From NCBI GenBank assembly GCA_902764575.1, contig CACWWI010000004.1, positions 1-35,551 of the forward strand: a stretch of 35,551 bases of DNA. Direction: 5' to 3'. The notes under the pieces were generated by a model that was given only the letters and a program-made list of their open reading frames with translations, was not told where the DNA came from and made no database searches. The stretch comes from an uncultured Coriobacteriaceae bacterium. GTDB lineage: Bacteria; Actinomycetota; Coriobacteriia; Coriobacteriales; Eggerthellaceae. The translations under genes were made by a program, and so were the position numbers. Below, piece by piece: positions 1 to 35,551 of the stretch; the stretch's first letter is position 1, and each line of letters begins with the position of its first letter.

Positions 1-201
1 CCTCTGAGCGCCGCCTTTTTACCGCGCCCACAAAGAAATCGGCCAAGTCTAGTAAGCGCCAAGCGGACCCAATAAGAGGAGAACCACTCCCGCGTAGTTC
101 GGCCGATTTCAAAGCGCGGTTGGGAGGCGGGGAAAAGCGAAGCGGGGCGCGCGGGGGAGGTCCCCGGCGCCCCGCGAGGGCGGACAGCAGAGGACAGGCG
201 C
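1..201 (-). repeat. Palindromic intergenic repeat, copy A (cut by window edge)
   Basis: This gene-free stretch follows the rho stop codon. Its inner arms are CGCCTTTTTACCGCG (12-26) with CGCGGTTGGGAGGCG (115-129), and AAATCGGCC (36-44) with GGCCGATTT (101-109). The inner arms enclose a 56-nt centre (45-100). The right end carries GAGGGCGGACAG, shared with the copies near 15.1, 18.5 and 31.2 kb. The left outer arm lies outside the window. Several arm differences from the other copies still allow G-U pairing in RNA. It lies directly after rho on the strand of rho transcription, so it may act as an mRNA 3' structure. It encodes no recognisable protein. Confidence 0.8.
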
Positions 202-14824: not shown

Positions 14825-14888
14825 CGGAATGGTACAAGGGCAACCTTAAGTCATCCTGAAACCCCGTGCGCCCCTCCGGTCATTTTCT

Positions 14889-15138
14889 TCAAGCGGAAGA
14901 GCGTAGCCCGAGCATGGCGCCGGCACCTCCCCTCCGCGCCCCTCTGAGCGCCGCCTTCCAACCGCGCCCACAAAGAAATCGGCCAAGTCCAGTAAGCGCC
15001 GTACGGCCCCTATAAGAGGAGAACCATTCCCGCGTAGTTCGGCCGATTTCAAAAGCGCGGTTGGAAGGCGGAGAAAAGCGAAGCGGGGCGCGGAGGGGAG
15101 GTGCCGGCGCCATGCTCGGGCGGACAGGAGGACAGACG
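14889..15138 (-). repeat. Palindromic intergenic repeat, copy B (complete)
   Basis: This fills most of the 351-nt gene-free gap between the DUF4956 and histidine kinase genes. Its 36-nt outer arms (14907-14942 and 15085-15120) are perfectly complementary. The inner arms CGCCTTCCAACCGCG (14952-14966) and CGCGGTTGGAAGGCG (15056-15070) pair perfectly, as do AAATCGGCC (14976-14984) and GGCCGATTT (15041-15049). The centre is 56 nt, as in copies A and C. The right end, CGGGCGGACAGGAGGACAGACGC, runs up to the histidine kinase stop codon. The left flank (14829-14865) is similar to the flank of copy C. No coding function is apparent. Confidence 0.9.
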
Positions 15139-16530
15139 CTACTCGATTGGGAGAGTAACAGTAAATGTCGTACCAGTTGAGGTGCTGCTTGCGCAGGTGA
15201 TGTCGCCTTCGTGCTCGCGGGCTATCTCGCGGGCGATGGCGAGGCCCAGGCCGTAGCCGCCCGTCCCTGATGTGCGAGCCTTGTCGGTGCGGTAGAAGCG
15301 GTCGAAGATGTGGGGCAGGTCCTCGGACGCGATGGTCGAGCCCGTGTTGCGTATCGCGAGCGTCGAGACGCCGCCCGCGGACGACAGGCTCACGGTTACC
15401 TCGCCGCCGTCGTCGACGTACTTGAGCGCGTTCTCGATGAGAGTGGAAACCATCTTGCGCAGCCTCTGGGAGTCGCCGTTCACCCGCAAGTTCTCGGCTA
15501 TGTCGCTCTCAAGCGTGCAGCCGCGCTCGAATGCGACCGATTCGAACTGCAGCACCAGGCCGTCCACAAGATCGCTGTAGTCGAGCTGTTCGTGCTGGAT
15601 GCTGCTGCGCGATTCCACCTGCGCCAGCTCGAGCATCTCGTTCACGAGGCCCTGCATGTTCTCGGCCTCGATCTGCGTGCTCTCGATCCATTGGCTCTGG
15701 CTCGCTATGCTCGACTCGGGGTGCTTGAGCAGGATCGATGTGTTCGCGAGCACCACGGTGAGCGGCGTCTTGAGCTCGTGGGAGGCGTCGGCCACGAACT
15801 GCCGTTGGGCCGTCCAGGCCTCCTCGACGGGCCGCAGCGCCCATTGGGACAGCTTGAGAGAGATAAGGAAGAACACCGCGAGCACCACCAGCGCGGCGAT
15901 GGCAAGCGTCAGCGCGAGGGGCTGCCAGCTCGCCGTGGATGTCGTGTCGGCGAAGGCGACGTACGTCGTCGTCTCGACCGTGCGCTTCTGGTAGTGCAGG
16001 CCCAGGTCGTCGAACGTCCCCGTTCCGTCGCTCACCGCGAGCACGCGCGTCGATGCCGTCGAGAGCACGTTCTCGTCGATTTCGGCGGTGGCGAAGCCGG
16101 AAACGAGATCGAGCTCGGCGGTCTCGGACGTCTTCGTCACCTGATACACGGCAACGGGAACCAGGTCGCGCCCTTCCCTGCCCTCGCCGCCGATGCGGGG
16201 GCCTTGGAACTGGGAACCGCCGGCGGCCTGTGCGCCGTCTGGGCCCCCATCGCCCTTCGGATGGCCATCGCGGCCATCGAACGCACCCGGCCCTTCGGAC
16301 GATGCGCTCGAGCTGCTCCCGCTGGAGAAGCTCCCCTGCGATGCGTCGAAATCGGGACCGCCGCTCCAGCCCTCGGCGGCGCGGTTGAGCGCGTTCATCA
16401 TGGCCACGTCGACACTCGACATCGCGCGCTGGTACTCGCTCACGCAGATTCCCGTGAACACGAGCGCCAGCACCACGGCCACGGACGCCATGACGATCGC
16501 GATGAACTTTATGCGCAGCTTGCGGAGCAT
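15139..16530 (-). CDS. Sensor histidine kinase
   Basis: This is a membrane sensor kinase of 463 residues, the likely partner of the OmpR-type regulator encoded upstream. It has a membrane segment at about 8-30, an extracytoplasmic region (31-200) with a Gly/Ser/Asp-rich low-complexity part (60-120), and a second membrane segment (203-226). A short linker leads to the HisKA domain with phospho-accepting H251 in ASHELKTPL. The ATPase domain follows, with N-box LIENALKYVDDGGEV, LPHIFDRFYR, and GYGLGLAIARE. The ATG lies 3 nt past the metA stop, with GGAG inside the metA end, suggesting coupling. The signal cannot be read from the sequence. Repeat copy B follows its stop codon. Confidence 0.93.
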   Translation of the reverse strand: MLRKLRIKFIAIVMASVAVVLALVFTGICVSEYQRAMSSVDVAMMNALNRAAEGWSGGPDFDASQGSFSSGSSSSASSEGPGAFDGRDGHPKGDGGPDGAQAAGGSQFQGPRIGGEGREGRDLVPVAVYQVTKTSETAELDLVSGFATAEIDENVLSTASTRVLAVSDGTGTFDDLGLHYQKRTVETTTYVAFADTTSTASWQPLALTLAIAALVVLAVFFLISLKLSQWALRPVEEAWTAQRQFVADASHELKTPLTVVLANTSILLKHPESSIASQSQWIESTQIEAENMQGLVNEMLELAQVESRSSIQHEQLDYSDLVDGLVLQFESVAFERGCTLESDIAENLRVNGDSQRLRKMVSTLIENALKYVDDGGEVTVSLSSAGGVSTLAIRNTGSTIASEDLPHIFDRFYRTDKARTSGTGGYGLGLAIAREIAREHEGDITCASSTSTGTTFTVTLPIE

Positions 16531-18421: not shown

Positions 18422-18485
18422 GTTCTTCCGCCTTTCCGCTTGATGTCTTCATTCTACTCAAGTTGCTGAACTCTCCCTGAAAGAA

Positions 18486-18744
18486 CGCGTCTGGCCCTCT
18501 GTCCGCCCTCGCGGGGCGCCGGGACCTCCCCTCCGCGCCCCCTTCGCTTTTCTCCGCCTTTTAACCGCGCTTTGAAATCGGCCGAACTACGCGGGCGGGG
18601 TTCTCCTCTTATTGAATCCGTACGGCGCTTACTGGACTTGGCCGATTTCTTTGTGGGCGCGGTAAAAAGGCGGCGCTCAGAGGGGCGCGGAGGGGAGGTG
18701 CCGGCGCCATGCTCGGGCTTCGCTCTTCCGCTGGAAGGAAATTT
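18486..18744 (+). repeat. Palindromic intergenic repeat, copy C (inverted relative to A and B)
   Basis: This occupies most of the 396-nt gap between the divergent response regulator and VTC genes. It begins ACGCGTCTGGCCCTCTGTCC, with the same end as copy D. The outer arms (18515-18541 and 18682-18708, 27 nt) differ at one position. The inner arms (18555-18569 and 18658-18672) have one mismatch, and AAATCGGCC (18575-18583) pairs with GGCCGATTT (18640-18648). The 56-nt centre is 18584-18639. Together with copy B it forms a large inverted repeat bracketing the response regulator, metA and histidine kinase genes. The rest of the gap (18745-18817) holds the presumed VTC promoter region. Confidence 0.9.
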
Positions 18745-18750
18745 GGGAGG

Positions 18751-31053: not shown

Positions 31054-31082
31054 CCAAAGCGCCACAACACGCGTCTGACCCA

Positions 31083-31243
31083 CTGTCCGCCCTCGTCTGC
31101 GAATGGGAAGCGGCTATCGCCGGGAGAGGGCGTAGCCGCTTCCGCAGGTACTAAATTCCTTTTTCTTCAGTTAACCGAGGACGCCGTAGGCCTAGCCCTC
31201 CCCCGGCGATAGCCGCTTCCCGTTCGCAGGCGAGGGCGGACAG
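31083..31243 (-). repeat. Palindromic intergenic repeat, copy D (same ends, different interior)
   Basis: CTGTCCGCCCTCG (31083-31095) pairs perfectly with CGAGGGCGGACAG (31231-31243). Next come 28-nt arms (31097-31124 and 31202-31229) with one mismatch that would be a G-U pair in RNA. The outer sequence, ACGCGTCTGACCCACTGTCC on the left, matches copy C, but the interior is unrelated to copies A-C. It lies between the end of the small membrane protein gene and the rpsP promoter, where it could act as a terminator or insulator. Confidence 0.88.
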
Positions 31244-31247
31244 GAGG

Positions 31248-31865
31248 TTAGGCGCTCTCTTTCTCGTCCTTAGGCTTGCGGAACCGAGCGAAGAACCCCT
31301 GCTCCTTCTTGGCAGCTTCTTCGGCTTGTGCGGCATCGAACTTCTCGGCCGCTTCCTTTTCCTGCGCGCGCTGCTCGGCGCGGACGCGCTTCTGCTCTCG
31401 GCGCGCCTCCTTGGACTTGCCGTTCATGATGGAGGCGTTGTAGATCTTGCGCTCCTTGCGGATCTTGCCCAGGTCGAGCCAGAACGCCAGGATGATCAGC
31501 GCGTATGCGGCAATCATGAGGCCCATGGACAGGTTGCGGAACGACTCGTCCAGCTTGGCCTGCACGAGGAACGACCCGGCGGTGCAGGCGATGGCGCCGA
31601 TGAGCATGATCCACCAGTAACGGCGCAGGCGCTTGTAGCCCTCGGTGTCCTCGTAGCGGTGCGTCGGCAGCGCCTCGGCCTTCTCCATGGCCTTGCGCTC
31701 GCGCTCGCGTGCTTCCTGCTTCTTCTGCTTCTTCGACTTCGGCGCGGGGTCGCGCACAGTGGCTGCGCGGGCCGTCTTGGGTTTTGCGGACGCAGAGCTC
31801 TTGCGCGTCTTACCGCTGCGGTTCTCGTCCTGGTAACGCTCGTTCATGGGGTTGCGCTGGCTCAT
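31248..31865 (-). CDS. Small two-pass membrane protein of unknown function
   Basis: I do not recognise this family by name. The 205 residues have a long, very basic N terminus (1 to about 80, Lys/Arg/Ala-rich), two membrane segments (about 84-104 and 112-130) separated by a short loop, and a charged helical C terminus (about 135-205, KEARREQKRVRAEQRAQEKE). The strong positive charge at both ends suggests cytoplasmic tails that could touch RNA, DNA or acidic lipids; this is inference. The ribosome binding site is weak. It lies 41 nt after purC, probably in the same transcript. Its stop codon lies just inside the conserved end of repeat copy D. Confidence 0.82.
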   Translation of the reverse strand: MSQRNPMNERYQDENRSGKTRKSSASAKPKTARAATVRDPAPKSKKQKKQEARERERKAMEKAEALPTHRYEDTEGYKRLRRYWWIMLIGAIACTAGSFLVQAKLDESFRNLSMGLMIAAYALIILAFWLDLGKIRKERKIYNASIMNGKSKEARREQKRVRAEQRAQEKEAAEKFDAAQAEEAAKKEQGFFARFRKPKDEKESA

Positions 31866-35083: not shown

Positions 35084-35551
35084 GTCTTCCTCGCTTGCCT
35101 CGTCTACTAAGTCTTCCTTGCTTGTCCGCCCTGGCTGGCGGCCGTGCGGGCTACGCACGCCTGTCTTCCTTGCTTGTCCGCCCTGGCTGGCGGCCATGCG
35201 GGCTACGCTCGACGCGTCGTCGCTTCGAGCCAATTTTCCCGCCAAGGGCGGGCGGGAAAATGGGTCTCTCAGCTCCTTTGGCTTGACCTCGCTACGCCCG
35301 CATGGCCACCAGCCAGGGCTACTCTTCCTTCATCGAAAGAGCCCTTTGGCTTAACCTCGCTACGCCCGCCCGACCACAAGCCAAGGCCACCCTTCCTTCT
35401 CCGCGGGACTGCCTTTGGCTTGACCTCGCTACGTCCTCCCGCCAGCCAGCCTGAGCTGCTCGTTCGGGTTCTTGCTTGTTTGGTGCGGTTGGGGCCGTAG
35501 GGTATTATACGGCTAGGCAATTTGAAGGTGGGGATGGTGGGTAGTAATTCG
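35084..35551. repeat. Gene-free repeat region (tandem and inverted repeats)
   Basis: No gene is supported in these 468 nt. A 46-nt unit beginning GTCTTCCTTGCTTGTCCGCC occurs at 35111-35156 and 35163-35208 with one difference. A second unit starting CCTTTGGCTTGACCTCGCTA occurs at 35275, 35343 and 35412, spaced 68-69 nt. Parts are inverted: 35180-35203 pairs with 35296-35319 over 24 nt with one mismatch, around an inner hairpin ATTTTCCCGCC/GGCGGGAAAAT (about 35233-35261). TGTCCGCCCT is shared with the ends of repeats A-D. Confidence 0.85.
35480..35508 (+). promoter_or_regulatory. Candidate promoter reading out of the window
   Basis: TTGGTG (35480-35485) and TATTAT (35503-35508) are spaced by 17 nt. 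It would transcribe to the right, toward a gene beyond the window end. The -10 is good and the -35 is weak. Confidence 0.4.

Follow-up and report, generated by a model that had tools for sequence, protein, structure and literature searches.

A likely mobile palindromic element behind a coriobacterial gene, with a stem kept as pairing and not as sequence

Copy D, the palindrome at positions 31083-31243, is likely a member of a genus-specific, non-coding and mobile family of MITE-like palindromic elements, whose stem stays paired while its sequence is free to change. It lies in the window, the whole stretch of 35,551 nucleotides analysed here, which corresponds to contig C4 in a genome of 2.48 Mb and 268 contigs (G000, apparently a MAG). 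The PurC protein of the window is 85-89% identical to those of Enteroscipio and the MAGs SIG38 and RUG13381, which places this gut-type actinobacterium in the Eggerthellaceae. The family occurs in multiple copies with shared ends, its members are nested in one another and are present or absent at orthologous sites, and in a sister genome, G113, they are bordered by 8-bp target duplications. At first sight it is an ordinary mobile repeat, MITE-like and nearest in habit to the YPAL elements of Yersinia. What sets it apart is that its stem keeps the pairing from copy to copy but not the sequence.

The palindrome is real, as originally described. It has a 53-bp core stem (31083-31135 with 31191-31243) round a 55-nt centre. 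The pairing extends, imperfectly, to 61-nt arms (31071-31131 and 31195-31255) that are 89% complementary, and the folding energy is -137 to -146 kcal/mol. The canonical orientation is the minus strand, as for the upstream gene. On that strand, the 53-nt 5' arm (31191-31243) begins with CTGTCCGCCCTCG, the conserved apical tip, CCTACGGCGTCCTCGG...CCTGCGGAAGCGG, occupies 31136-31190 (tip model R1 matches 31120-31203), and the 3' arm (31083-31135) terminates in CGAGGGCGGACAG, a left-type end where other copies have the right end TACGCTCTTCCG. Copy D does lie where a minus-strand gene ends, as was claimed. The gene, P0001 (31248-31865), encodes a hypothetical membrane protein and lies downstream of purC; copy D begins at its stop codon. 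The left end on this side, GCGCCTAACCTCC (31244-31256, minus strand), includes the TAA stop codon at 31248-31250. On the other side, a second left-type end, ACGCGTCTGACCCA (31069-31082, plus strand), faces rpsP (minus strand, start ~30955). The sequence that follows copy D on the P0001 strand, CGGACAGTGGGTCAGACGCG, has no T run, so copy D is not classed as an intrinsic terminator. In the closest relative, G114, an intrinsic terminator follows P0001. Since copy D occupies this place without a T run of its own, the sequence makes it a plausible candidate for the transcript end of P0001; it would probably be a 3'-UTR hairpin that forms the 3' end of the mRNA and replaces the terminator of the relatives.

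Related elements are abundant in the genome. BLAST located 74 places in G000, at least 20 copies carry the tip, and the copies are short (~160-280 nt) and non-coding. In canonical order, a D-type element consists of the left end GCGTCTGxCCTCCTGTCC, an arm, the tip, the complementary arm and the right end TACGCTCTTCCGCTGGAAGGAA. The arm starts with GCCCTCG in many copies; the stem is 17-53 bp long and its sequence varies from copy to copy. The tip follows the pattern GCCTACRGC...CTGCG(G/C)AAGCGG, in detail GCCTACRGC..TCCTCGG, about 25 A/T-rich nucleotides and CCTGCGGAAGCGG, and 17 of its columns are invariant in an alignment of 30 sequences from nine genomes. One hairpin is nested inside the tip loop of another on contigs C50, C3, C177, C114, C37 and C72.

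The window itself holds three copies of another interior type. Copy A (1-200, minus strand) is cut by the contig start and directly adjoins rho (202-1947) at its stop codon. Copy B (14882-15139, minus strand) abuts the stop codon of a histidine kinase gene (15139-16530), and copy C (18480-18745, plus strand), an apparent recombinant with outer stem arms of two types, lies between divergent genes. These copies share the left end with copy D, whose interior is unrelated to theirs. Across the genome the two types, A-C (~260 nt) and D (~160 nt), have both ends in common, in agreement with the original proposal of like ends and unlike interiors. The proposal that the terminal 13-mer forms an inverted pair was not borne out. 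With 20 occurrences in 2.48 Mb, against one for a reversed control, the 13-mer, CTGTCCGCCCTCG, is not due to chance, and it is clearly paired round a single element in copy D alone. Nearly all other copies have CTGTCC on one side only and GGGC-TACGCTCTTCCGCTGGAAGGAA on the other; this right end was found at 22 sites, and its control at none. Of the shared end, only the inner GCCCTCG/CGAGGGC is part of the stem. Copies A (here 1-187) and C also show differing arm subtypes on their two sides (CCTCCCAACC versus GGTAAAAAGG; CGCGGGG versus GAGCATGG), as if recombined between copies.

The family is confined almost entirely to one genus. Of 138 genomes of the bacterial family, 9 gave whole-element DNA matches, and all 9 belong to the genus. 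A covariance model of the tip matched 8 of 396 class genomes, six of them in the genus (G000 and five further); outside it, there are two copies in G102, a complete genome of a related genus, and one doubtful match in G243. Across the genus, conservation is strongest in the apical tip and not in the ends. No family element was found in the plasmids, phages and viral contigs searched. An orthologue of P0001 is present in 14 of 15 genus genomes. Of these, only G000 and G126 have an element behind its stop codon, and the arms of the two elements are unrelated. At the other 12 of these 14 sites there is either an ordinary terminator or simply the following gene, and no element was found at the copy D locus in the named relatives SIG38, RUG13381, Enteroscipio and Parvibacter. 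Stop codons appear to be preferred neighbours: 26 of 63 elements start -10 to 25 nt from a sense stop codon, compared with 4% expected at random positions. Near the 3' ends of a TelA-like gene and a TrmH/SpoU-type methyltransferase gene, elements occur independently and in differing orientation across species (L217, L255 and C39; L201, L202 and L254), and these genes may be insertion hotspots.

The evidence for transposition comes from G113. The ~20 copies examined there have the same tip and carry inverted ends, GTTACTGTTCA(C/G)AC; four elements are flanked by exact 8-bp target duplications (GCCAAGAA, GAAAACGC, GCTCGGCT and GAAGAGTA) and a further one by a 7/8 match. The 14-nt end of the palindromes, GTTACTGTTCACAC, recurs in a single truncated IS copy, ~300 nt ahead of an IS66-type transposase gene. 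This gene, truncated itself, matches NF033517 with an E value of 1e-19, a match that falls short of the curated whole-protein cut-off, and it is the only PF03050 gene in G113. The sister genome thus shows transposition. No inverted ends outside the hairpin were found in G000, unlike G113. A scan of all offsets revealed no target duplication at the G000 element ends, no IS66 transposase (PF03050) was found in this 95% complete MAG, and no transposase or recombinase flanked by the family ends was identified there. A search for IS66 in G000 and eleven other genomes found genes in G116, G117 and G124, with no matching ends in the surrounding sequence that was examined, and none of the 860 ORFs of the element loci recurred as a neighbouring candidate transposase. 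With neither a duplication nor an IS66 gene in G000, we infer the mobility of copy D itself from the family and do not file it as a proven MITE; duplications and transposase-shared ends are seen in G113, not in G000. The original prediction of a mobilised element with exchangeable interiors therefore stands as regards mobility, on the strength of nesting, differences in occupancy and the G113 duplications, and falls as regards recognition through a paired 13-mer. The suggested check for target duplications in relatives gave a positive result in G113; in G000 neither duplications nor a transposase with these ends were found. We propose that an element is built of a long stem that carries an invariant apical tip and is flanked by conserved ends, that a transposase would move it in trans, and that it would insert mostly in the short gap behind a stop codon.

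The stem behaves differently from the tip. In 66 elements, 93% of the arm positions are Watson-Crick paired, though the arms vary between copies; L277 has 50-bp arms with zero mismatches. Among 399 pairs of the G113 family there are 29 compensated, 23 one-sided and 2 uncompensated double changes, with 0.33 double changes expected under independence; many compensated changes are shared by descent and the independent events are fewer, about 16 distinct changes by eye. Flips confined to a single copy include A-T to T-A (L201) and A-T to C-G (L318). At an orthologous locus of G120 and G121, where the upstream genes are 92.5% identical, the tip and its immediate flank are nearly identical and the two arms show concerted changes, one of them from GGG.CCC to AAT.ATT. 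Beside the tip, 49 two-sided cells were counted versus 15.5 in shuffles, above all 500 of them. In G119, G124 and G126 the arms look mutually unrelated, although homology can still be recognised in part of the tip loop. The copying of the arms from the insertion site at each insertion was also considered and rejected, because the G113 family has nearly the same arms at every site.

This pattern suggests that one arm is corrected against the other at the DNA level. When one arm mutates, the other would follow, probably through a template switch of the polymerase between the arms during replication. Multi-base compensated changes are a described signature of template-switch mutations (PMC8794818), and for this reason we prefer arm correction in replication, with selection for a hairpin function as a possible addition. 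Tentatively, we further propose that only the tip and the ends may be inherited as sequence and the stem as complementarity, its arms evolving in concert via template switching so that each copy has a stem of its own.

Compensatory change in a stem is normally taken as proof of a functional RNA. The copies might thus be regulatory parts and not mobile DNA, either a structured RNA gene or a 3'-UTR hairpin with a protein bound to its tip and with selection for RNA pairing. The strong covariation, the invariant internal-loop nucleotides of the tip and the orientation of the elements after stop codons are in keeping with this explanation; a sense stop is found at 26 of the 63 elements and an antisense stop at the other side of 15 (p=0.04 for the difference). 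Pairing selected on the transcribed strand should, however, make G.T outnumber A.C. Outside G113 and G116 the sense strand has 26 G.T and 25 A.C mismatches, which argues against a strand-specific RNA wobble. In addition, nine stems of at least 25 bp are entirely free of mismatches, occupancy at copy D's own gene changes between species, and orientation varies at the 3' ends of the same TelA and methyltransferase genes. Rfam gave no match in the window, and for copy D only sub-threshold chance matches, none above the gathering threshold. We regard a functional RNA as unlikely to account for the family. The very strong covariation in the absence of a G.U signature indicates that DNA-level arm correction may here mimic RNA conservation.

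It is very unlikely that the elements are REP/BIME repeats mobilised by a RAYT (Y1 transposase). They resemble GTAG REPs in being intergenic palindromes with GTAG at the stem base and alternative complementary stem bases among members; CTAC/GTAG occurs at their stem bases, with GTAG adjoining the stems in the tip and the right end. Two Y1_Tnp genes of RAYT size are present in G000 (L157:1111-1917 on C42 and L158:931-1869 on C96). Each is, however, surrounded by a short palindrome family of its own (TGAGTCAGGCCCCCTGGGGGACGACTCA and CCCCGCGGGAAATCGGTTTCCCGCGGGG), and mobilisation by a RAYT was rejected on these grounds; no cognate RAYT was found. The 8-bp duplications of G113 also speak against it, as single-strand Y1 transposition is not known to create them. 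GTAG REPs have stems of 5-13 bp and loops of 2-20 nt (PMC3733652), versus 17-53 bp and ~50 nt here. An assembly artefact is the least probable explanation of all. Within the genus, the search covered fragmented assemblies that seem to be MAGs, and assembly from short reads can even out differences between arms or fold a contig back on itself, which might create seemingly perfect palindromes and two-sided changes. Many copies are situated at contig ends, and contig C37 starts with a giant inverted repeat (G000:C37:1-460) in which ~95 bp of unique flank is folded back beyond a nested element. This fold-back is probably artificial, with the hairpin as the cause of the misassembly. Against a general artefact, the unique flanks differ on the two sides of elements, target duplications are exact, mismatches persist in many arms, and two copies occur in G102, itself a single 3.2 Mb contig, where their arms of 26-27 bp are unrelated and nearly perfect.

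Copy D is exceptional in that a left-type end closes it at either side. These ends, GCGCCTAACCTCC and GCGTCTGACCCAC, are not identical, and both arms contain the unusual stretch GGCTATCGCC; copy D therefore looks like a single element with its outer end replaced. It also lies at a synteny breakpoint, as its downstream neighbour in G000 differs from the common one; the same is true in G126. Recombination between two inverted copies would yield both two left ends and broken synteny, and copy D is probably its product. A chimeric join in the MAG assembly is possible. More generally, the family offers an explanation for assembly breaks and for one synteny breakpoint in the genus.

Among known systems, the YPAL/RU-2 palindromic sequences of Yersinia are ~168 bp long, have internal inverted repeats, are intergenic and recently mobile, target sites near dyad symmetries with duplications of 3-26 bp, and have a proposed effect on the upstream transcript (PMC2229807). 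Our family is similar in size, in its internal rather than terminal inverted repeats, and in location, recent mobility, targets and proposed influence on the upstream transcript. It differs in that YPAL is one sequence family with duplications of variable length, whereas here the arms vary under an invariant tip and the duplications, where found, are of 8 bp. The G113 elements are like IS66 and its MITEs, with inverted ends in common with an IS66-type transposase gene and 8-bp duplications; those of G000, without such ends, duplications or an IS66 gene, are not. IS66 biology is not known to include long stems topped by a conserved tip. Quasipalindrome correction is comparable in its multi-base compensated changes and long perfect stems, but its descriptions concern RNA genes and mutational hotspots and do not extend to mobile hairpins that form a family under an invariant tip (PMC8794818). 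With many copies at hand, the rate of arm correction could be measured. If the stem is indeed inherited as complementarity, the family would be a natural multi-copy system for gauging palindrome correction.

Two further palindromes were noticed. One, with the variant tip GCCTATAGCAGTTCAGC...CACAAGCGGC, is a neighbour of the elements at L194 and L186 of G120 and G121, ~110-220 nt rightward of their tip, and shows the opposite pattern, with arms nearly identical between the species and a diverged apical loop. The inverted arms noted at 35.1-35.3 kb exist, but belong to a related-looking third type (35111-35470, plus strand) with the ends TTGTCC/GCCCTGG...CCAGGGC/TACTCTTCC. It contains direct repeats of 49 nt and 57 nt, spaced 52 and 68-69 nt.
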